Source: Crocinitomicaceae bacterium
GTDB lineage: Bacteria > Bacteroidota > Bacteroidia > Flavobacteriales_D > Crocinitomicaceae
Length of the DNA stretch: 64,000 nucleotides
Direction: 5' to 3'
Assembly: GCA_030830785.1 (NCBI GenBank)
Contig: JAURMI010000002.1
Location: forward strand, 62,001-126,000
Shown: positions 42,780 through 54,959 of the stretch, one piece after another
Layout of the letters: each line of letters starts with the position of its first letter
Position numbering within the stretch: the stretch's first letter is position 1
The notes under the pieces: generated by a model
Seen by the model: the letters and a program-made list of their open reading frames with translations, nothing else
Databases searched by the model: none
Told to the model about the DNA's origin: nothing
Translations under genes and position numbers: made by a program

Positions 42780-45479
42780 CTATAATTTTCTTGCTACTTC
42801 AACCTCCTCGTATGCTTCAATAATATCGCCAATTTGAATGTCGTTGAAATTATCTATGTTTAAACCACATTCATAATTATTCTTGACTTCTTTGACATCG
42901 TCTTTAAATCGCTTCAATGAACCAAGATTGCCAGAATGAACAACAATACCATCGCGGATAAGGCGTACCTTAGAAGTCCTTTTAATGATTCCATCAAGTA
43001 CGTAACAACCTGCTATTGTTCCAACCTTAGTAATCTCGAAAGCTTCTCTTACCTCAGCAGATCCAGTAACTTTTTCTTCAATGTCAGGTGAAAGCATCCC
43101 TTCCATTGCTGCTTTTATTTCTTCAATGGCCTTATAAATTACCGAATACATCCTGATATCGATTTGTTCGCTTTCAGCCAATTTACGTGCTGGCAATGTA
43201 GGTCTTACTTGGAAACCGACAATAATTGCGTCAGAGGCTGAAGCAAGGTTGACATCTGCCTCAGTGATTGCGCCAACACCTTTTAATACGATGTTAACTT
43301 GGATTTCTTCAGTAGAAAGGTTTAAAAGTGAATCAGAAAGGGCTTCAATTGAACCATCTACATCACCTTTAACGATAATATTCAATTCTTTAAAATCACC
43401 AATGGCTAAACGACGACCAATTTCATCGAGGGTAATATGTTTTGTTGTGCGCAAACCTTGTTCTCGATATAACTGCTCTCTTTTTTGAGCAATTGATTTT
43501 GCTTCTTTTTCATCGTCCAAAACGTTGAAATTATCGCCTGCACTAGGGGCGCCATTGATTCCGAGAACTGCAACAGGTTGCGCAGGACCAGCCTCTTTTA
43601 ATGCTATTCCGTGTTCATCTTGCATAGCGCGTACACGGCCATAATAGCGGCCCACTAAAATAACATCACCAATGCGCATGGTGCCTGCCTCAACGAGCAT
43701 GTTTGTCACATATCCTTTCCCTTTATCTAAAGAAGACTCGATAACTGTTCCAATTGCATTTTTATTTGGGTTGGCTTTAAGATCAAGTAATTCCGCTTCG
43801 AGTAAAACTTTATCTAGCAAGGCATCTATATTCAAATTCTGTTTTGCAGAAATTTCTTGAACTTGGTATTTGCCACCCCAATCTTCTACAAGAATATTCA
43901 TGGCTGATAACTGTTCGCGAATTTTATCTGCATTAGCACCGGGCTTATCAATTTTATTGATGGCAAAAATCATTGGTACATTTGCGGCTTGTGCATGAGA
44001 AATCGCCTCCTTTGTTTGAGGCATTACATCATCGTCAGCAGCTACAATAATTATCGCAACATCTGTTACTTGGGCTCCTCTTGCGCGCATCGCAGTGAAG
44101 GCTTCGTGACCAGGCGTATCTAAAAAGGTCATTTTACGACCATCCTTTAAGGTAACAGAATAAGCACCAATATGTTGGGTAATACCGCCTGCTTCACCTT
44201 CAGTAACATTCGCATTTCGGATGCGGTCGAGCAAGGAAGTTTTACCATGATCCACGTGGCCCATAACAGTAATGATTGGCGGGCGTGCAATTAATTCTTC
44301 GGGCTGATCTTCAACCACCGAAATAGCATCCTGTAATTCTGCACTGATGAATTCAGTATCAAATCCAAACTCATCTGCTACAATTTGAATAGTTTCTGCA
44401 TCAAGGCGTTGATTGATCGAAGCAAAAATACCCAATGACATACAAACAGAAATAACTTGGGTTGGCTGAATATTCATCATAGAAGCAAGCTCAGAAACGG
44501 TAACGAATTCGGTAAGTTTTAGTGTTTTTTCTTCGAGTTCGGCCATTGCCATCTCTTCTTGACGGCGCTGAGCATTTATATCTCGTTTTTGACGACGATT
44601 TTTTGAAGCTTTCGATTTACCTCCTTGATTAGAAAGTCTTGCAAGCGTTTCTTTGATCTCTTTTTGAATATCCTGGTCGGAAATTTCAGCCTTTTCTATT
44701 TTAGGCTTATTATTGGCATTATTGGTATTGCTCGGATCTACTTTCTTGATGCGTTTGCGTTTGCGCTTTGAATTGGCATCGTCTGAAGATGAGGCAACTG
44801 GTGTTCGAGGCCTTTCTGTCGGTAATTCAATTTTACCAAGCACCGTTGGCCCTGATAGGGATTGTCTAGACACGCGAATTGTTTCAATTGGTGCCGGACT
44901 CTCTAAAGTTGCTTCCACATCGGATTTATCAGATGAGGTAGTAGGACTTTCAGGTTTTGCTTTCTCTTGGTGAGTCGAAGCATTGTCTTTAGCTTTATTG
45001 CTGTCCTTGGCTTTTTCAGGTCGAGTGCGTTGATTAATGGCCTCTAAATTGATTTTACCGACAACATTAATTTTTGTCTCTACACTTTTAGATTGAATTT
45101 CTGATTTAGTATCACTTGAGTCTGAGGAGAGGTCTGTTGGTGAAGTCTCGTTAAGAACCTGACGTTTAATTTCTTCTAAATTAATTTCTTCATCATCGTC
45201 TTCCTCGACTGCCTGCGCATCATTAGGCTCATCAACAGTTTTATCTTTTAGAGATAAAGATTCACGCTTCTCTCTTCTTAAAACAGCTTTAGACTGCTCT
45301 TTCATACTTTGGTCTGCGGCAAACTCTTGACATAAAATATCATAGTGCTCTTGATCCAAACGTGAGTTTGGTGTCGGATCAATGACTATCCCTTTTGAAC
45401 CCAAGAATTCAACAATAGTTGGTATTCCTACATTCAATTCTCCTGCTGCTTTTCCTAAACGAATCGGTTTTCCCGCCAT
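42780..45479 (-). CDS. infB: Translation initiation factor IF-2
   Basis: 899 residues. The N-terminal third (about 1-300) is a charged, probably disordered extension starting with the IF2-N motif [20 protein letters not shown]; a second IF2-N-like unit follows near 325. The GTPase has G1 [14 protein letters not shown] (near 408), G3 [17 protein letters not shown] and G4 [10 protein letters not shown], then the C-terminal beta-barrel domains. It positions initiator tRNA on the 30S subunit. Third gene of rimP-nusA-infB, 32 nt after nusA. Confidence 0.97.
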
Positions 45480-45511: not shown

Positions 45512-46747
45512 TTATTCAAATTCCGCTTTTAAAATACGGAATACTTCTTCAATGGTTTCTTTTTCGAGGTCTGTACGTGCTACTAAATCATCAATGCTGA
45601 TCTCAAGAACAGCCTTGGCCGTATCACAACCAATTGCTTTGAGCTCATCGATTATCCAACCATCGATTTCATCGGCAAATTCTTCTAAATCAACATCCTC
45701 AATATCGACTTCGCCATCGCGATAAACATCAATCTCGTAACCACAAAGTTTTCCAGCAAGTTTTATATTATTACCCCCTTTACCAATGGCCAAAGACACT
45801 TGATCGGGTTTTAAAAATACTTTGACGCGTTTTTCATCATCTAAAATTTCCATGGAAGTAATCTTAGCAGGTGATAATGCGCGCTGGATGAGTAATTGCT
45901 GATTACTAGTAAAATTAATTACGTCAATGTTTTCATTGCGCAATTCTCTAACAATTCCATGAATACGAGATCCTTTCATTCCAACACAAGCGCCTACAGG
46001 ATCAATGCGGTCATCGTAAGATTCTACAGCTACTTTTGCACGTTCTCCTGGTTCACGGACAATATTCTTAATCGTAATAAGGCCATCAAACACCTCCGGA
46101 ACCTCTAACTCAAACAAACGCTCCAAAAACTCAGGAGCAGTGCGTGAAAGAATAATAACTGGGGTGCTATTGCGCATGTCCACTTTAGCAACCACTGCAC
46201 GAACAGACTCACCTTTTTTAAAGAAATCAGATGGGATTTGCTCGCTCTTTGGAAGTATTAGTTCGTTGCTGTCGTCATCCATTATAAGGATTTCTTTTTT
46301 CCAAACTTGATATACCTCACCAGTTACAATTTCACCAATTCGCTCTTTATATTTGTTATAAAGTTGGTCTTTTTCAAGCTCCATAATTCGAGAAATAAGG
46401 TTTTGACGCAATGCAAGTACATTGCGACGACCAAAATCCTCAAATTTAAATTCTTCAGTTACCTCCTCACCTATTTCAAAGTCAGGTTCAATTTTAATGG
46501 CATCTGAATAAGCTATTTCTGTATTTGAATCCTCTACTTCACCATCATCTACAATTTCTTTATTTAAAAAGATTTGTACGTCACCCTTATCAATGTTGAC
46601 AACGATGTCTATATGTTCATCAGTATTGAATTTCTTTTTGAGCATGGCACGAAATACATCTTCTAGCACATGCTGCATTGTTTGCTTATCAATATTTTTA
46701 AGTTCTTTAAACTCTGAAAATGAGTCAACAAGTTCCAAACTATTCAT
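45512..46747 (-). CDS. nusA: Transcription termination/antitermination factor NusA
   Basis: 411 residues: N-terminal RNA polymerase-binding domain (about 1-130), S1 domain (about 135-205, GEIVTGEVYQVWKKEILIMD), KH1 (about 215-290, DPVGACVGMKGSRIHGIVRE) and KH2 (about 295-350, VSLAIGKGGNNIKLAGKLCG), ending in an acidic helical tail (IEEVFRILKAEFE). NusA promotes pausing and intrinsic termination, and in several bacteria is autoregulated. Five nt after rimP. The leader of this operon contains a terminator-like hairpin (47243-47269). Confidence 0.97.
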   Translation of the reverse strand: MNSLELVDSFSEFKELKNIDKQTMQHVLEDVFRAMLKKKFNTDEHIDIVVNIDKGDVQIFLNKEIVDDGEVEDSNTEIAYSDAIKIEPDFEIGEEVTEEFKFEDFGRRNVLALRQNLISRIMELEKDQLYNKYKERIGEIVTGEVYQVWKKEILIMDDDSNELILPKSEQIPSDFFKKGESVRAVVAKVDMRNSTPVIILSRTAPEFLERLFELEVPEVFDGLITIKNIVREPGERAKVAVESYDDRIDPVGACVGMKGSRIHGIVRELRNENIDVINFTSNQQLLIQRALSPAKITSMEILDDEKRVKVFLKPDQVSLAIGKGGNNIKLAGKLCGYEIDVYRDGEVDIEDVDLEEFADEIDGWIIDELKAIGCDTAKAVLEISIDDLVARTDLEKETIEEVFRILKAEFE

Positions 46748-46752
46748 GGGTA

Positions 46753-47229
46753 TTATTTAAATGAAATTACAATTTTTGCATCTTTTACTTGGTTGAAGGG
46801 TAGTTCAATTATTTCTTCTACCCAAACTTTTTTCTTTTTATTTTCTTCGCGTTTTTGCTCGCGTTTTTTAAAAATTAGATTGTCATCGGCCATTTTTACA
46901 AGTTCAGCTTCAAAATTATCTCCTTGTAATGACTGCACTTTAAAACTACGTCCAACATTCTTAGCAAACTGGTTGATATGCCTGATTGGCTTATCTAGAC
47001 CTGCAGAAGAAACGTGTAATTCAAAGTCAGCTTTTTCTCTGTCCAAATTGTGTTCTATATTTCTAGAAACAGAAACACAATCATGCACACTTACTCCGCC
47101 CTTTAGTTTATCCAATTCAACATGAATCACATTTGTGGGTGAAATGCGCAAATCGACAAGGTATAGACCATTATTGAGTTCGTCTATTCTTTCGGCAATT
47201 AATGATTCTATAAGTTTCTTATCTAACAT
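46753..47229 (-). CDS. rimP: Ribosome maturation factor RimP
   Basis: 158 residues from the ATG at 47229 (MLDKKLIESLIAERIDEL); an upstream frame to 47286 would start inside the leader hairpin and has no homologous sequence. Typical RimP N-terminal domain with GLYLVDLRISPTNVIHVELD, CVSVSRNIEHNLDREKADFE and the conserved HVSSAGLDKPIRH, then a SH3-like C-terminal domain. It aids 30S assembly. First gene of the operon; the promoter lies at 47295-47324. Confidence 0.93.
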   Translation of the reverse strand: MLDKKLIESLIAERIDELNNGLYLVDLRISPTNVIHVELDKLKGGVSVHDCVSVSRNIEHNLDREKADFELHVSSAGLDKPIRHINQFAKNVGRSFKVQSLQGDNFEAELVKMADDNLIFKKREQKREENKKKKVWVEEIIELPFNQVKDAKIVISFK

Positions 47230-47242
47230 AGTATTGTTATCG

Positions 47243-47269
47243 AAAAAAAGAGGGGACTTGCGTCCCCTC
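47243..47269 (-). terminator. Terminator-like hairpin between the promoter and start codon of rimP
   Basis: Read on the minus strand, a perfect 8-bp stem GAGGGGAC / GTCCCCTC closes a GCAA tetraloop (a GNRA loop) and is followed by seven T's (plus 47243-47249). It has the form of a strong intrinsic terminator, yet it lies 13 nt upstream of the rimP ATG and downstream of the predicted promoter. On the plus strand the stem is followed only by GTTTTATC. It is either an attenuator for the rimP-nusA-infB operon or marks the end of a short leader RNA. The structure is seen directly; the regulatory role is inferred. Confidence 0.8.
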
Positions 47270-47294
47270 GTTTTATCATTAATCAAATGTGTTG

Positions 47295-47324
47295 CAAATA
47301 TACGGCATTTAAATTAATCCACAA
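47295..47324 (-). promoter_or_regulatory. Promoter of rimP-nusA-infB
   Basis: On the minus strand TTG (plus 47322-47324), a 19-nt spacer and TATATTTG (plus 47295-47302), a full match to TTG-N19-TAnnTTTG. Transcription would start near 47288, giving a leader of about 60 nt that includes the hairpin at 47250-47269. Confidence 0.75.
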
Positions 47325-47334
47325 AATCATAATG

Positions 47335-47342
47335 TATCTTTG
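47335..47342 (+). promoter_or_regulatory. Possible -7 element of the DUF3109 gene
   Basis: TATCTTTG matches TAnnTTTG and ends four nt before the ATG at 47347. No TTG lies at the expected -33 distance. If used, the message would have no leader. Confidence 0.35.
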
Positions 47343-47346
47343 TATT

Positions 47347-47925
47347 ATGTTAGTCGAAATTGAAGATAAAATTATTTCCACTCAAATCTTCGAAAGAAAA
47401 TTTGTATGCGATCTTAATGCCTGCAAAGGAGCATGCTGTGTTGAAGGAGATCAAGGCGCACCGCTTACTCAAAGTGAAGTTTCTTTGATTGAAAAAAATC
47501 TTGAATACATTAAGCCCTACATGCGAAAAGAGGGAGTCGAGGCAATAAAAACTAATGGTGTAGCCTCATTGGATGAGGATTTTGAGGCCCAAACAACCTT
47601 AGTAGATAATAAAGAATGTGCTTTTGTCTACTTTGATGAAGCTAATATTGCCAAATGTGCTATTGAAAAAGCGCAACGCGAGAATAAAATTGATTTTATC
47701 AAACCCATTTCGTGCCACTTGTATCCTATTCGCACTAAACAATTCAATAATTACACCGCCCTTAATTATGAGCAATGGACAATTTGCCAACCAGCTTGCG
47801 CTTGTGGAGAAAAATTGAATATGCCCGTTTTTAAATTTTTAAAAGCGCCATTAATCAGAGCTTTTGGAGAAGATTTTTACAAGGAGCTGGAAAATATTTC
47901 ACAACAATTAGAATCAGCTAAGTGA
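47347..47925 (+). CDS. DUF3109 / YkgJ-type cysteine-cluster protein
   Basis: 192 residues from the ATG at 47347 (MLVEIEDKII). Cysteines recur in patterns suited to binding a metal or Fe-S cluster: CDLNACKGACCVEGDQG near residues 22-38, a later CAFVYFDEANIAKCAIE, then ISCHLYPIR and CQPACACGEKL. The sequence opening (FERKFVCDL.ACKGACCVEG) is the DUF3109 signature. Its role is unknown. Reading the gene from 47287 would add residues that overlap the rimP promoter. It converges on coxA with a shared terminator between them. Confidence 0.88.
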   Translation: MLVEIEDKIISTQIFERKFVCDLNACKGACCVEGDQGAPLTQSEVSLIEKNLEYIKPYMRKEGVEAIKTNGVASLDEDFEAQTTLVDNKECAFVYFDEANIAKCAIEKAQRENKIDFIKPISCHLYPIRTKQFNNYTALNYEQWTICQPACACGEKLNMPVFKFLKAPLIRAFGEDFYKELENISQQLESAK

Positions 47926-48000: not shown

Positions 48001-49806
48001 CTAATGTGACTGCTCACCTTCTTTTAGTGGTGTTACTTGAGTAATAAAATCACTCTCTTCACCTGGGACAGAATAGTCATAAGGCCAACGGTGTACTGTT
48101 GGCAATTCACCTGGCCAATTTCCATGAATATGTTCTACAGGAGTGGTCCACTCTAAGGTTGTTGAAGACCATGGATTTTGCGGTGATTTAGGGCCTCTAA
48201 AAATCGAGTAGAAAAAATTGAACAAGAAAATTAACTGACCTAGGGCTGCAATGATAGCAAAAACAGTTATGATTTCGTTTAAATCAACCATCAGATTTAA
48301 TGAATTGTTATCAAATTCTCCGTAAGCAGAGTAATCATAATAACGACGCGGCGCACCAGCCAATCCTACAAAGTGCATTGGGAAGAAAACTCCATAGGCG
48401 CCAACTAATGTAATCCAGAAATGTGCATATCCCAATCTAGTATTGAGCATCTTGCCAAACATTTTTGGGAACCAATGGTAAATACCCCCAAACATACCAA
48501 ATACAGCAGACATCCCCATAACAATGTGAAAGTGCGCTACAACGAAATAAGTATCGTGCAACATAATGTCAAGGGCTGAATCTGCCAAAATAATTCCAGT
48601 TACGCCACCAGTAATAAAAGTAGAAACCAAGCCTATAGCAAATAGCATGGCAGGAGTCAATACCAAGGAACCTTTCCACAAGGTTGTTAAATAATTAAAT
48701 ACTTTAACGGCCGATGGAATGGCAATCAAAAGTGTGGTAAATACAAAGACGCTACCCAGAAATGGATTCATTCCTGTTACGAACATGTGATGCCCCCAAA
48801 CAATAAAGGATAAAAATCCAATTGCAAGGATTGAGCCAATCATTGCCTTGTATCCAAAGATTGGTTTTCTAGAATTGGTCGCAATGATTTCCGACGATAA
48901 TCCCAAGGCAGGTAATAATACAATATATACCTCAGGGTGACCCAAGAACCAGAACAAATGCTGATAAAGAATAGGAGAACCACCGTGATTGGTTAGCATT
49001 TCACCCCCAACAATAATGTCAGATAAATAAAATGAAGTTCCCATAAGGCGATCCATAATTAAAAGGAGTGCTGCAGATAAAAGAACAGGAAACGATAAAA
49101 CACCTAAAACTGCCGTTACAAAGAACGCCCAAATTGTTAATGGCATACGCGTCATTTTCATTCCTTTGGTTCTAAGGTTGATGATCGTAACGATGTAATT
49201 CAACGAACCGAGCAATGATGAGGCAATGAAAATGGCCATCGAAACCAACCAAAGTGTCATTCCAAAGCCTGAACCTGAAACTGCCTGTGGCAACGCAGAT
49301 AGCGGTGGATAGACTGTCCAGCCGGCCATAGCGGGCCCTGACTCAACAAATAATGATACAATCATTAGCAACGATGAAAGTGCAAAAAACCAGTATGAAA
49401 GCATATTTAAAAAACCTGAAGCCATATCACGAGCGCCTAATTGAAGAGGAATCAAAATGTTAGAAAACGTTCCCGACAAACCTCCTGTAAGAAGGAAGAA
49501 TACCATAATGGTTCCGTGAATGGTGACCAAGCCTAAATACATATCTTCTTTGAGGACACCATTAGGCGCCCATTTTTCGCCAAGGAAAAAAGATAAGAAA
49601 TCTGAACTTTCTCCTGGCCAAGCCAATTGTATTCTAAACATGATCGATAACATCATTGCAACTAGACCCATAAAGACAGCAGTCATTAAGAATTGCTTGC
49701 CAATCATTTTATGGTCTTGAGAAAAGATGTATTTAGAGATAAAATGCTCCTCATGATGATGGTGTTCATCATGATGTCCGTGTGCCTGTGCGTCGTGTGA
49801 AGCCAT
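48001..49806 (-). CDS. coxA: Cytochrome c oxidase subunit I (aa3-type)
   Basis: 601 residues with twelve expected membrane helices, a His-rich N-terminus (HGHHDEHHHHEEH) and all key residues: WFLGHPEVYIVLLP with the Cu-B His and cross-linked Tyr (near 270-285), FIVWGHHMFVTGM with two Cu-B His, and HDTYFVVAHFHIVMG with both heme a His ligands. It reduces oxygen to water at the heme a3-Cu-B site and pumps protons. Last gene of the act-cox operon, 28 nt after coxB; no coxC follows. Confidence 0.97.
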   Translation of the reverse strand: MASHDAQAHGHHDEHHHHEEHFISKYIFSQDHKMIGKQFLMTAVFMGLVAMMLSIMFRIQLAWPGESSDFLSFFLGEKWAPNGVLKEDMYLGLVTIHGTIMVFFLLTGGLSGTFSNILIPLQLGARDMASGFLNMLSYWFFALSSLLMIVSLFVESGPAMAGWTVYPPLSALPQAVSGSGFGMTLWLVSMAIFIASSLLGSLNYIVTIINLRTKGMKMTRMPLTIWAFFVTAVLGVLSFPVLLSAALLLIMDRLMGTSFYLSDIIVGGEMLTNHGGSPILYQHLFWFLGHPEVYIVLLPALGLSSEIIATNSRKPIFGYKAMIGSILAIGFLSFIVWGHHMFVTGMNPFLGSVFVFTTLLIAIPSAVKVFNYLTTLWKGSLVLTPAMLFAIGLVSTFITGGVTGIILADSALDIMLHDTYFVVAHFHIVMGMSAVFGMFGGIYHWFPKMFGKMLNTRLGYAHFWITLVGAYGVFFPMHFVGLAGAPRRYYDYSAYGEFDNNSLNLMVDLNEIITVFAIIAALGQLIFLFNFFYSIFRGPKSPQNPWSSTTLEWTTPVEHIHGNWPGELPTVHRWPYDYSVPGEESDFITQVTPLKEGEQSH

Positions 49807-49834
49807 TATTTTGTTATTTATCGTTTCTAAAAAA

Positions 49835-51058
49835 TTAATTCATTGTTGTGTCTGTTGCTTCTGCAGGGGTAACTGCAGCAACAGGAAAATACTGATCTTT
49901 AAAGGTTGCCTTTTTCTTGGCATCCATCCATTTTTTATAGGCGGGTTTATCTAGGACAACCACAATCATTTTCATTTTATAATGCGCGCCACCACAAATT
50001 TTATTACACATCAATATGTAATTGAAATTTTCGTCATTTTTTTCTCGACGCATTTCTGTTGTGGTCATGTTGGGTGTGAATTTCAAGCGAGTAGCCATAC
50101 CGGGAACAGCATTCATTTGTGCGCGAAAGTGAGGGAAATACGCAGAGTGAATGACATCCTTAGCACGCAATGCTACTTCATATTCCTGACCTTTACACAA
50201 GTATAGGGTGTCTTTTTGAATGATATCGTCCCAAGCGTTAGCATCAAGTTTAGCGTTATGATTTTGTTTCATTTGTGTCAAAAATCGATAAGTCCTTTCT
50301 TTTCTAGATAAATCAGCTCTAATTACATTAAGTGTTGAGTCACTAAAAACAGTATCTCTATTGTTGATTAAATTTTGTAAAATCCGTATGCCCGACGGCC
50401 CGTTCAACATATAATTCAAAGACGAATCAATGGTATTGGTTGTCAAGAGCGCTAACTCGTTGTTGTCTAGCGTTAATTTATAATCATAGAGGCCCAGTGT
50501 ATTGTCTGCTCCAGCATATCGGGCAGTCCAATCAAATTGTTTAGAGAATAACTCTATTTTTTCAGCTTCAGGTTTAGTTGGACCTGTCAAATGGCTCCAA
50601 GTCTGCAAACCTAGTATAATAATTACCGCTAAAACTATCGCTGGAACAACTGTCCAGAGCATTTCTAACTTATTATTGTGCGGATAATAAAAAGCGGGCA
50701 CACCAGGTTTCTTTACATATTTCCATGTAAAATAAAATAGGAGGAAATTCGTAAAAAAGAAAATCACAATGATAATCACCAAATTTAAATTGAAGAGCCA
50801 ATCCATTTCATTTCCTTCATCCGAAGCTGCCGGCCCTCTGCCCGTCCAACCATAAGCATACATAAGGTAAATGAACCAGCCGAACATGAACAGCATAAAG
50901 CCAAACATTAAACGGCCATTTAAATTGTTATCTCGACTAGATATTTCGTTTTCCTGACGCTTACGTAATTTGGCAGATATTTCGTAAATCCTAGCCAATT
51001 GTGCAACCGCAATTACACCTAAAACAATGACAATTAAAATGATTAATTTATTTTCCAT
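49835..51058 (-). CDS. coxB: Cytochrome c oxidase subunit II
   Basis: 407 residues with two N-terminal membrane regions (about 3-20 and 50-70) and a further helix near 130-150; the C-terminal cupredoxin domain holds the CuA site (CNKICGGAHYKM near 348-359), with both Cys, the His and Met. It receives electrons from cytochrome c. It is longer than the usual subunit II because of an extended N-terminal region and a helical insertion (about 215-275), as in other Bacteroidota. 22 nt after actF. Confidence 0.94.
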   Translation of the reverse strand: MENKLIILIVIVLGVIAVAQLARIYEISAKLRKRQENEISSRDNNLNGRLMFGFMLFMFGWFIYLMYAYGWTGRGPAASDEGNEMDWLFNLNLVIIIVIFFFTNFLLFYFTWKYVKKPGVPAFYYPHNNKLEMLWTVVPAIVLAVIIILGLQTWSHLTGPTKPEAEKIELFSKQFDWTARYAGADNTLGLYDYKLTLDNNELALLTTNTIDSSLNYMLNGPSGIRILQNLINNRDTVFSDSTLNVIRADLSRKERTYRFLTQMKQNHNAKLDANAWDDIIQKDTLYLCKGQEYEVALRAKDVIHSAYFPHFRAQMNAVPGMATRLKFTPNMTTTEMRREKNDENFNYILMCNKICGGAHYKMKMIVVVLDKPAYKKWMDAKKKATFKDQYFPVAAVTPAEATDTTMN

Positions 51059-51080
51059 GACTTTTTATATTGTCTTCAAA

Positions 51081-52268
51081 TTAAATTTCGTGGTGATTAC
51101 TTTCATCTAAGAATGGGTGATTAACAGGTGTCAATGGCGCTTTACTTAAATTGCGCAAAACGACATATATAAAAGTTCCTGCCATAAGCAAGGCCATTCC
51201 GATTTCTAAAGCACCCAACTTGGCATTTGCCCCTAACGAACCTGCTGATACCATAATGTAGACATCTAGCCAATGGCCCATTAGAATGGTTAAGCCAACA
51301 AAAACAAGAATTCCCGCGTTTCGTTTAGCGTCGCGCGACATCAAAATCAACATTGGGAATGCAAAATTAATGATGAACATGCCAAAATATAATAATTTAA
51401 ATTCAGCAATTCTTGTTTGAAAATACACTACTTCTTCCCCGATATTTGCATACCAAATCAACATAAATTGTGAAAACCATAAATATGACCATAAGAAAGA
51501 TGTGGCAAAAGTCCATTTACCTAAATCGTGAATGTGAGAGTTGTTGACGTTTGAAAGGTGACCTAATTTTTTAAGATATAATGTGGTCAGAACCAAAACT
51601 ACCATCGTTGAGCACCACATACCGGCAAATGTATACCAACCAAAAAGGGTAGAAAACCAATGCACATCGATCGACATGATCCAATCCCAAGCAGAAGTTG
51701 AGCTAAATACTGCAAAGAATACTAAAAATAAGGCTCCTCTTTTATAATTTTTGAAGTGCAATGCTGTGCCTCCAACGCTATCCTCTTCTAATGATCGCTT
51801 TTTGAATCCTCTCCAAAATAAGAAATAAGTTGTAAAATAAACTATGGTGCGAATCCAAAAGAATATTGGGTTTAGGTAAGCTGCTTTATGACGCACTAAT
51901 TCGTCGTGAGCTTTTACTTTTGGGTCCATCCAAGAATAAATGTGTGCGCCATCGTTTATTGTAATCACTAACAAAACTAAGCCTAAAACGATCATACCTA
52001 TAGGTAAGAACCCAGCTACTGCCTCAATTACACGCTTAATTGCTGCATACCATCCAGATTCTGTTGCGTATTTAAGCGCAAGGAAAAACAATGCGCCCAA
52101 GCCCAAAGCAAAGAAAAAGAAGCCACTGATCAAGCCCGAGGCCATCAAACGCGTAAAGAAATGATGATCAGATGCAGAAAGTACCACACCGATAATAGTT
52201 AGCAATGTGCCCAGACCCATGAGTCCGAATGCTACATTTTTTGCTTTTTTAGTTATTTGAAATTCCAT
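51081..52268 (-). CDS. actF: Alternative Complex III subunit ActF
   Basis: 395 residues with about ten membrane helices (VAFGLMGLGTLLTIIGVVLS, FFFALGLGALFFLALKYATE). ActF is a quinol-binding membrane subunit related to NrfD/PsrC. The order actABCDEF then coxB then coxA supports the name. In the inner membrane it would pair with ActC. Confidence 0.9.
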   Translation of the reverse strand: MEFQITKKAKNVAFGLMGLGTLLTIIGVVLSASDHHFFTRLMASGLISGFFFFALGLGALFFLALKYATESGWYAAIKRVIEAVAGFLPIGMIVLGLVLLVITINDGAHIYSWMDPKVKAHDELVRHKAAYLNPIFFWIRTIVYFTTYFLFWRGFKKRSLEEDSVGGTALHFKNYKRGALFLVFFAVFSSTSAWDWIMSIDVHWFSTLFGWYTFAGMWCSTMVVLVLTTLYLKKLGHLSNVNNSHIHDLGKWTFATSFLWSYLWFSQFMLIWYANIGEEVVYFQTRIAEFKLLYFGMFIINFAFPMLILMSRDAKRNAGILVFVGLTILMGHWLDVYIMVSAGSLGANAKLGALEIGMALLMAGTFIYVVLRNLSKAPLTPVNHPFLDESNHHEI

Positions 52269-52280
52269 TGCTCGTCTTGA

Positions 52281-53012
52281 TTAATTCGCGTTAGTAGTGT
52301 CAGAAACCAAAGTTGAAACTGCTGCGCCGTTGGCATCAAACTTACCATAATTGGCATCCTGTATACGACGTATATAATGTATAATGCTCCAAATTTCTTT
52401 TTTGTTCAAAATAGAACCATGTGAACCCATCATGCCTTTACCATAGTAAATGGAATAAAACATCTGCCCCTCAGTTGCAGCTAAGCCCACATAATTAGGA
52501 ACTCCAGAATAAGCTTTTGACACAACCATTGGGCCCTGACCATCACCTTTCTCTCCATGGCAATGCTGACACATAGCAGTAAACAGTTCCTTGCCCTTAG
52601 AAATATAAGTCTCGGCGTTATCTTTATCTAAAGTAATTGGGTTTTTGTCATTGACAGCTAAAGTATATTCATCTGCAGTTGAGTAATCCCAACCATATAA
52701 ACCATGTGTTTGGCGAAAAGCCACATTTGGCTTGCGAAAATAAGGCAACATGAGCATAACTTCTGACGAATCTGTTCCATAGTATGGCACCGTGTTGCGC
52801 GGTGGCGTCAGAGCTGATAAACGACCTTTCCATTGTTTGTTTTCTCGGCCTCGAACCTCCCCATAATCTACATAGGTTTCTATGCCCGGCGTCCGATACA
52901 TATCAGGTGCATATTCTAATCCTGGGCTGTCTGCATTGGAAACACATGAGTTCAGAAGCAATGAAAGGCTTAAGATTGCTCCACTAAGTGTTGTGTATAT
53001 TATTTTTTTCAT
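52281..53012 (-). CDS. actE: Alternative Complex III cytochrome c subunit ActE (lipoprotein)
   Basis: 243 residues. The signal LSGAILSLSLLLNSC ends in a lipobox, so the protein is membrane-anchored. One heme-binding motif CQHCHGEKGDG lies at about 151-161, and a Met ligand candidate follows (YYGKGMMGSHGSI). This is the mono-heme cytochrome that passes electrons toward cytochrome c or the oxidase. 12 nt after actD's stop and 12 nt before actF. Confidence 0.92.
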   Translation of the reverse strand: MKKIIYTTLSGAILSLSLLLNSCVSNADSPGLEYAPDMYRTPGIETYVDYGEVRGRENKQWKGRLSALTPPRNTVPYYGTDSSEVMLMLPYFRKPNVAFRQTHGLYGWDYSTADEYTLAVNDKNPITLDKDNAETYISKGKELFTAMCQHCHGEKGDGQGPMVVSKAYSGVPNYVGLAATEGQMFYSIYYGKGMMGSHGSILNKKEIWSIIHYIRRIQDANYGKFDANGAAVSTLVSDTTNAN

Positions 53013-53024
53013 AAGACCCTGAAC

Positions 53025-53561
53025 TTATTTAATTTCTTTTTTATCCAACTCTAAATATCCTACTTCTTGCAACATTTTGTCGAGTTCTTTCTCGGAAATT
53101 TTGTTATTCTCACTCAAGCGTATTTCCATCACAAATTTATCGTCCGTTGTGCGCGGATCAGGATTTTGAGCGGGCATGCCAGGAAGTGTTTTGTTTCGAA
53201 GTAAATACGTGATCGCCATTCCGTGTGCGGCGCACATTACAGTAAACTCAAAACTTATGGGCACAAAGGCCAAGATATTTTCTAAATATGAAAAATTCGG
53301 TTTTCCACCAATATTCATAGGCCAATCGGTTACCATAAAAAATCGCATACCAATTGTTGCAAGTGTTAAGCCCGTTAGACCATACAAAAAGGCCATGATT
53401 CCTAGTCGTGTATTTTTAACACCAATAATTGGATCAATACCATGTATAGGGAATGGAGAAAAAACCTCTGTTATTTTTACTCCTTTTTCGACGAGTTTTT
53501 TTGCGCTATCTTTTAGCACATGATCATCGTCGTACATTACATATAGAACTTTGTCTGACAT
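53025..53561 (-). CDS. actD: Alternative Complex III subunit ActD (DUF3341)
   Basis: 178 residues with two membrane helices (about 57-77 and 96-118) and the DUF3341 pattern: VKITEVFSPFPIHGIDPIIG at the N-terminus and MPAQNPDPRTTDDKF near the C-terminus. ActD is the small membrane subunit of ACIII. 9 nt after actC. Confidence 0.93.
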   Translation of the reverse strand: MSDKVLYVMYDDDHVLKDSAKKLVEKGVKITEVFSPFPIHGIDPIIGVKNTRLGIMAFLYGLTGLTLATIGMRFFMVTDWPMNIGGKPNFSYLENILAFVPISFEFTVMCAAHGMAITYLLRNKTLPGMPAQNPDPRTTDDKFVMEIRLSENNKISEKELDKMLQEVGYLELDKKEIK

Positions 53562-53570
53562 AGCATTTAC

Positions 53571-54959
53571 TTAATGATGTTTATGATAATCTGGAGACTC
53601 TTTATAAGACTGCCCTGAACCCTTCAATATAGATTTCACTTCATTGAGCGCTAGAACAGGAAAGAACCGCGCGAATAATAAGAAGAACACAAAGAACAAG
53701 CCAATTGTACCGATGTATACGGCGATATCAATATGACTAGGGAAATGCATACTCCAAGCAGCTGGCACATAATCTCGGTGTATTGAGGTAACGATAATTA
53801 CGTAGCGCTCAAACCACATACCTATGTTTACAACTATTGAAATAAAGAAAGTAAATAATAAACTTCTTCTCAAACGACGAATCCACATGAGCTGTGGTGA
53901 GATTACATTACATGTCATCATTGACCAATATGCCCACCAATAAGGTCCTGTGGCTCTATTAAGAAAGGCATAAGACTCATATTCTACTCCAGAATACCAT
54001 GAAATAAATAGTTCTGTAATATAGGCTGTACCCACAATTGAACCAGTTACCATGATGACAATATTCATGTATTCAACATGTTTGGTATGAATGTAAGCTT
54101 CCAAGGCCATGGCTTTTCGCATAACCAATAAAAGGGTTTGTACCATTGCAAAACCTGAAAATACTGCTCCTGCCACAAAATATGGAGGGAAAATAGTGGT
54201 GTGCCAACCCGGAATAACAGATGTAGCAAAGTCAAAGGATACAATGGAGTGTACAGAGAATACGAGTGGTGTAGCTAAGCCCGCCAAAACTAAAGAAACC
54301 AATTCAAAACGATTCCAATGCTTTGCACGGCCAGACCATCCAAATGAAAGTATACTATACATTTTTTTGGACAAAGGTTTTTTAGCCCTATCACGGATTG
54401 TTGCGAAATCTGGTATTAATCCTATGTACCAGAATACTAGAGAAACAGATAAGTAAGTCGAAATAGCAAATACATCCCAAAGTAAAGGAGAATTAAAGTT
54501 CACCCATAAAGACCCAAATTGATTTGGAATGGGCATTACCCAGTATCCTACCCACAAGCGTCCCATGTGAATTAGCGGAAAGGTGCCTGCCATAAATACG
54601 GCAAAAATTGTCATTGCTTCAGCCGATCGGTTAATTGCCATACGCCATTTCTGACGGAACAATAACAATACTGCTGAAATGAGGGTGCCGGCATGACCAA
54701 TACCTACCCACCATACAAAGTTGGTGATGTCCCAGGCCCAGCCAATTGTTTTGTTCAAGCCCCAAACACCCACTCCCGTGCCGAGTAAATACATTATACT
54801 ACCTACGCCATAAAGACCAATTACTAAGGCGATTCCAAATAGGATGTACCACATTTTAGGTGCTTTGTCTTCAATTGGTCGACAAACATCTTCTGTGACG
54901 TCATGGTAGGTCTTGTGACCTAATATGAGGGGCTCTCTGATTGCTGCTTCCTTTTGCAT
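53571..54959 (-). CDS. actC: Alternative Complex III subunit ActC (NrfD/PsrC-like)
   Basis: 462 residues with about ten membrane helices and NrfD-like motifs (WWVGIGHAGTLISAVLLLF, SIVSFDFATSVIPGWHTTIF). ActC probably oxidises menaquinol and passes electrons to the iron-sulfur subunit ActB. It lies 24 nt after actB and 9 nt before actD. Confidence 0.94.
   Translation of the reverse strand: MQKEAAIREPLILGHKTYHDVTEDVCRPIEDKAPKMWYILFGIALVIGLYGVGSIMYLLGTGVGVWGLNKTIGWAWDITNFVWWVGIGHAGTLISAVLLLFRQKWRMAINRSAEAMTIFAVFMAGTFPLIHMGRLWVGYWVMPIPNQFGSLWVNFNSPLLWDVFAISTYLSVSLVFWYIGLIPDFATIRDRAKKPLSKKMYSILSFGWSGRAKHWNRFELVSLVLAGLATPLVFSVHSIVSFDFATSVIPGWHTTIFPPYFVAGAVFSGFAMVQTLLLVMRKAMALEAYIHTKHVEYMNIVIMVTGSIVGTAYITELFISWYSGVEYESYAFLNRATGPYWWAYWSMMTCNVISPQLMWIRRLRRSLLFTFFISIVVNIGMWFERYVIIVTSIHRDYVPAAWSMHFPSHIDIAVYIGTIGLFFVFFLLFARFFPVLALNEVKSILKGSGQSYKESPDYHKHH

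Follow-up and report, generated by a model that had tools for sequence, protein, structure and literature searches.

A predicted leader terminator of the rimP-nusA-infB operon, conserved across Bacteroidota and found before nusA in a lineage without rimP

Introduction

Why would a transcript of the operon that encodes NusA have to pass what looks like an intrinsic terminator before its first gene, and which product of the operon would such an element serve? NusA is a general termination factor that stimulates intrinsic termination, and its own level must be held. The locus that raises the question lies in a stretch of 64,000 nucleotides from a Crocinitomicaceae bacterium (contig JAURMI010000002.1, positions 62,001 to 126,000; hereafter the window, numbered from its first letter).

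A leader terminator of rimP-nusA-infB is already known in kind, and NusA feedback was proposed for it in 2010 by Naville and Gautheret, whose passages on the element (PMC2965389) name it the rimP-leader, put rimP at the top of the genes predicted to carry attenuators, and argue for a sequence-reading protein with NusA as the best candidate. In B. subtilis, NusA is described as autoregulated by NusA-stimulated termination in its leader (PMC12288461, a 2025 review citing Mondal 2016). For E. coli, the relevant passages of PMC6511841 place two terminators before rimP and report feedback by NusA, with transcripts rising in mutants with reduced NusA termination; expression of a rimP leader fusion reportedly dropped when Rho was mutated (PMC7815308), so the operon may also be subject to other routes of termination. 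In S. agalactiae, RNA-seq showed rimP-nusA-infB transcripts terminating at an intrinsic terminator 31 nt downstream of their start, and NusA feedback was suggested (PMC4448216, 2015). Closest to the present case, a structured 5' element precedes rimP in Flavobacterium psychrophilum and is present in other genera (PMC9723704); it is likely the same as the hairpin described here. A literature search that covered neither subscription papers nor supplements returned nothing beyond PMC9723704 on the element across Bacteroidota and nothing on the position of the hairpin in rimP-less bacteria, and the string 'bacteroid' does not occur in the main text of PMC2965389. Three results reported below are absent from the passages of PMC2965389 and PMC9723704 that treat the element: its count over the phylum, the inversion of some stems, and its position ahead of nusA where rimP is missing.

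Results

A terminator-like hairpin in the predicted rimP leader

The operon is encoded on the minus strand and begins with rimP (46753..47229; Pfam RimP_N 7.4e-9, RimP C-terminal domain 2.9e-6), followed by nusA (45512..46747; Pfam NusA_N 6.7e-29 and KH domains) and infB, which encodes IF2 (42780..45479; Pfam IF-2 2.6e-39). A DUF3109 gene (47347-47925, plus strand) diverges from rimP, and between both genes sit, in minus-strand order, the promoter, the hairpin, a run of seven T's and 13 nt leading to the rimP ATG (47229-47227). The promoter is of Bacteroidota type, with a -33 element TTTG (47322..47325) and a 19-nt spacer to the -7 element TATATTTG (47295..47302); we take TTTG-N19-TATATTTG to match the full consensus for the phylum, and from the spacing that we assume for such promoters transcription is predicted to start at about 47291. 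The sequence-only reading from which this work began had placed a full-consensus promoter upstream of the hairpin at 47295-47324; a promoter of this type is indeed present, but it extends about one base further (47295-47325).

The hairpin consists of a 5' arm GAGGGGAC (47262..47269, minus strand), a GCAA tetraloop (47258..47261, minus) and a 3' arm GTCCCCTC (47250..47257, minus), and it is followed directly by the T-run (47243..47249, minus), the expected 3' end of a terminated leader RNA. Its eight perfect, GC-rich base pairs end 20 nt before the rimP ATG. The predicted fold of the leader has an energy of -21.5 kcal/mol, compared with about -7.1 for shuffled sequences (z about -6.5; 0/200 shuffles as good), so that the 8-bp stem, GCAA loop and seven T's originally noticed by inspection are present far beyond chance. 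Searched as a pattern with at most two mismatches, the hairpin occurs at a single place in the genome assembly (1.9 Mb, 83% complete); a looser covariance model again ranked the rimP hairpin best (E 1.4e-8) and added two weaker places (9.1e-6 and 1.9e-4). When the 50 ORFs of the window that remain of 57 after removal of 7 overlapping ones were scanned for a terminator-like hairpin no more than 130 nt upstream, three were found. Two of them, rimP and the gene diverging from it, share the present hairpin, read on opposite strands; the third is a gene located behind tRNA-Gln. The hairpin of the third is GCTTCCGTTAACGGAAGC with a T-run at 61165-61148 (minus strand), a terminator after the tRNA-Gln gene at 61244-61171.

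The predicted folds of the leader amount to the hairpin itself, with the minimum-energy and centroid folds in agreement, and no C-rich stretch able to pair with the GAGGGG arm was found in the 5' part of the leader; the earlier statement that no competing antiterminator is apparent was thus borne out. Two other identities for the element were considered and set aside. Weak Rfam matches to enterobacterial sRNAs (the best to STnc50, at 30.7 bits where the cut-off is 55) were taken to reflect generic terminator likeness. A leader peptide running across the hairpin was rejected, an ATG being present in 53 of 102 leaders where shuffles give 43.1, in a frame that differs between relatives.

Around the element, the promoter box of the DUF3109 gene, TATCTTTG (47335-47349, plus strand), ends 4 nt before the ATG of that gene, so its mRNA is probably leaderless; the -7 boxes of the DUF3109 gene and of rimP point apart, with about 33 bp between them. 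The nearby stretch at 48001-54959 (minus strand) includes a gene for an NrfD-type subunit, and from their translations we presume the genes there to be a cytochrome oxidase and alternative complex III cluster.

Comparison with described leaders

As described in PMC2965389, the rimP-leader is a short terminator hairpin, with a G-rich 5' arm and a T-run, in the 5' UTR of rimP-nusA-infB, and this general form is shared here. Hairpin and T-stretch lie 4-130 nt before the gene in that description; here eight pairs and seven T's end 20 nt before it. The rimP-leader is placed in the 5' UTR of the operon, and the present hairpin lies in a predicted leader whose start site is itself predicted. Its general form has no visible antiterminator, and here too no competing fold was seen. 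As to sequence, the motif of the rimP-leader reads GGGc(...)gCCC, and the present stem has GGGG/CCCC followed by A, then C; the signature is not general in Bacteroidota.

The Rfam family RF01770 (rimP) occupies the same operon position in E. coli. Its model of 102 positions detected, among 14 control genomes, E. coli only; none of 20 relatives exceeded the family cut-off, this genome had no match, and in the present leader there was no match at E up to 5. Weak matches in 3 of the 20 relatives lie on contigs other than those of their rimP.

The nusA attenuator of B. subtilis resembles the present element in that an intrinsic terminator in the 5' leader controls transcription into nusA (PMC12288461); NusA dependence is reported there, whereas here it is putative. 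The leader RNA of S. agalactiae was measured at 31 nt (PMC4448216), and about 49 nt is predicted here.

Conservation across Bacteroidota

Two sets of genomes were used. For the genus and order, RimP was searched in 60 genomes, this one included, of which 58 matched; complete upstream DNA was available as 57 regions from 56 genomes (two regions from G051), after exclusion of L012 (G010) and G047, where the contig starts inside rimP. For the phylum, NusA was found in 118/118 genomes drawn. Three of these overlap with the first set, 90 others were read upstream of nusA and 25 were left unread. Among the 90, 88 have rimP within the stretch read upstream of nusA, one (L173) is cut by the contig end, and one (L161, genome G166) has no rimP.

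Before rimP, a terminator-like hairpin with a score of at least 14, a threshold chosen after seeing the spread from among five computed, was found in 139 of 145 regions (144 genomes), compared with 5.5 from dinucleotide shuffles and 36 on the opposite strand; at a score of at least 18 the corresponding numbers were 106/145, 0.5 and 16. By set, the lower threshold was reached in 57/57 genus and order regions and in 82/88 phylum regions, and a few of the automatic picks are hairpins other than the likely leader one (L122, L115, L129, and L211 in the rimP-less set discussed below). The six regions below 14 (L106, L110, L127, L128, L131, L133) are not counted among the 139; post hoc folding placed in them a hairpin beside at least seven T's and no farther than about 120 nt from the predicted start, with the best predicted fold differing from the obvious stem in L127 and L128. 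These counts come from gene-anchored regions. A phylum-wide covariance-model search was not counted as presence, because generic and two-way terminators match the model too (110/296 genomes match), and the realignment it yields mixes both strands and was left out of the pair counts below.

The arrangement of the element is conserved along with its presence. Across the 57 order-level regions the T-run stays attached to the stem, and the distance from stem to start codon ranges from about 8 to 42 nt. In 102 of the 139 leaders, where shuffles give 5.8, the stem is preceded at no more than 45 nt by the TAnnTTTG box of the Bacteroidota-type promoter, a box named in PMC9723704. By a simple ORF rule the next upstream gene is divergent in 72 of the 139, in the same direction in 63 and undecided in 4. 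Since the hairpin cannot be the end signal of a divergent gene, that explanation is ruled out for the 72, and a shared role is possible in the 63. Two hairpin and T-run units seemingly stand in tandem before rimP in L091, L092, L094-L096, L115 and L129, as judged by eye and, for L115 and L129, by folding; the first unit may be the end of the upstream gene or part of a double attenuator like that described for Gammaproteobacteria (PMC2965389).

Stem constraint within the genus and turnover between clades

Whether close relatives keep the stem, and whether its pairs covary, were the two comparisons suggested at the outset. The stem is identical in 35/35 same-genus regions, with loops of GAAA in 25, GCAA in 8 and others in 2, and compensatory pair changes are found across the 139 stems. 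Counting inward from the outermost G-C, each of five pairs occurs in at least two Watson-Crick forms, and non-pairs make up 6 of the 695 cells (five pairs in 139 stems). The 139 Bacteroidota stems have 23 different 5' arms, G-rich in 112, C-rich (that is, inverted) in 23 and neither in 4. The stem sequence turns over between clades while the hairpin and T-run stay.

The terminator at the end of the DUF3109 gene served as a loose control within the genus: of 34 readable regions (one further region was too short), 13 gave such a hairpin, in 10 stem forms. With the rimP stem identical in its letters genus-wide and the neighbouring terminator variable or not found, a constraint additional to termination may act on the sequence there. 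The T-run is broken by another letter in many leaders of the genus (TTTTATT, TTTTGTT), and these may terminate weakly.

A hairpin before nusA in a lineage without rimP

The single phylum-set genome without rimP, G166, is listed as 100% complete and has no RimP_N match. Its family, which is Kapaibacteria-type and was sampled across 27 genera, gave no RimP_N match in 39 of 40 genomes, or in 31 of the 32 with a completeness of 90% or more and a contamination of 5% or less, by a search that found RimP in 10 of 14 control genomes. The sole match, in G386, lies on a contig other than that of its nusA. RimP, a maturation factor of the 30S subunit, thus seems to be missing from this lineage as a whole.

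NusA was found in 35 of the 40 genomes and 30 loci were read. A hairpin and T-run no more than 200 nt before nusA scored at least 14 in 24 of the 30, compared with 0.7 from shuffles and 3 on the opposite strand; in the same stretch before nusA, none was found in the 88 genomes with rimP. Among the remaining six, inspection of four (L184, L185, L195, L204) shows a T-run preceded by a stem of four pairs or by a hairpin with a long loop, L190 has no hairpin by eye before nusA, and the L191 locus is cut short. The hairpin of G166 itself (L161/L204/L212) has four pairs and fails the automatic test, its leader folding no better than shuffles (z -0.78); the case for a hairpin before nusA rests on the lineage, not on G166.

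A second scan took in 80 loci from named genomes, a sample that overlaps the first and in which many genomes are probably the same; two loci of insufficient length, L236 and L253, were excluded. Where rimP is missing from the locus, the hairpin stands before nusA in 33 of 36 (the misses being L212, L216 and L243), and in relatives with rimP it stands before rimP in 35 of 42 and before nusA in 1 of 42. The record names are mostly Candidatus Kapaibacterium, Kapabacteria, Ignavibacteria or Bacteroidetes metagenome assemblies. Four loci (L224, L247, L252, L272) are labelled Desulfobulbaceae, Chloroherpeton thalassium or Armatimonadetes, and their NusA falls among Kapaibacteria/Ignavibacteria/Chlorobiota; some of these labels look wrong.

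In a NusA tree without an outgroup, one branch (support 100/99) parts the 36 rimP-less loci from the 42 with rimP; with the NusA of this window as outgroup, on a very long branch, two changes are needed. A single loss of rimP is compatible with this picture, and the lineage is therefore treated as a single natural experiment and not as several. The hairpin being kept before nusA without rimP, RimP is dispensable for it. No such separation is available for IF2: in 115 of 118 genomes infB and nusA share a contig and a strand at a distance of 3.2-4.2 kb, and infB was not found apart from nusA in any of the 118, the other three (G154, G083, G155) being split over contigs. NusA and IF2 thus cannot be told apart as the partner of the hairpin by this route.

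Discussion

Sequence and its comparison place a hairpin and T-run of conserved position and direction behind a Bacteroidota-type promoter, with compensatory changes in the stem and with independence of rimP. Conservation, covariation and direction strongly support its reading as an intrinsic terminator inside the leader. We consider it probable that the element is a leader attenuator of the operon and that the terminated fraction most likely rises with NusA, giving negative feedback. Polymerase would start near 47291 at the TATATTTG promoter and enter a leader of roughly 62 nt; the hairpin would form at about +23 to +42 and the T-run would be reached at +43 to +49. Part of the polymerases would then stop at about +49 and release an RNA of, by our reckoning, about 49 nt, and the remainder would read into rimP-nusA-infB. 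The stopping fraction would rise with NusA, holding the operon at a set level. That termination takes place here, and that read-through is partial, we infer from these features; release would be incomplete because nusA is essential where this was tested, in E. coli and B. subtilis (PMC12288461). NusA is the best candidate sensor since it is encoded in the operon, stimulates intrinsic termination, and is reported to regulate itself in B. subtilis; NusA dependence in Bacteroidota is presumed on these grounds.

The leading alternative, which we regard as unlikely, is an attenuator of fixed strength without a sensor, which would lower expression by a constant factor or respond to general conditions such as nucleotide supply. 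It would suit a leader this short, in which no second structure was seen, and a stem sequence free to change between clades. Yet promoter strength could achieve the same lowering, and the hairpin is nonetheless retained phylum-wide and even without rimP; moreover, NusA feedback is reported for the operon in B. subtilis (PMC12288461) and in E. coli (PMC6511841). That termination is set by another protein (RimP, IF2, or a reader of the GAGGGGAC stem) bound to the hairpin appears more doubtful still. The identity of the stem throughout the genus, beside a varying DUF3109 end terminator, speaks for such a protein, as does the argument for a sequence reader in PMC2965389, although NusA was its best candidate there. 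RimP, however, is absent from a lineage that keeps the hairpin, and with the C-rich strand first in 23 of the 139 stems no single sequence can be read across the phylum; IF2 is a possible sensor. Least probable is an action on rimP translation or mRNA stability, by ribosome block or protection of the 5' end, for although the stem comes as close as 20 nt to the ATG here and 8 to 12 nt in several relatives, its spacing from the start codon differs greatly between leaders, the T-run is fixed to the stem and the direction of the hairpin is kept.

With NusA-responsive attenuation as the preferred reading, we lean somewhat towards a further proposal, that the terminator belongs to nusA and not to rimP: a standing NusA-sensing part of the operon across Bacteroidota, its stem replaced several times and the element kept without rimP. 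If this is true, evolution would preserve the act of NusA-tuned termination and not a recognised RNA sequence. The case of RF01770 shows that a curated family model can overlook an element whose position and form persist but whose sequence does not. The locus described here offers one well-defined site in Bacteroidota where the action of NusA could be measured. Were the terminator a gauge of NusA, the rimP-less lineage would show which product of the operon does not matter, and the phylum-wide set would amount to a natural library in which stems and T-runs are all adjusted to a single task.
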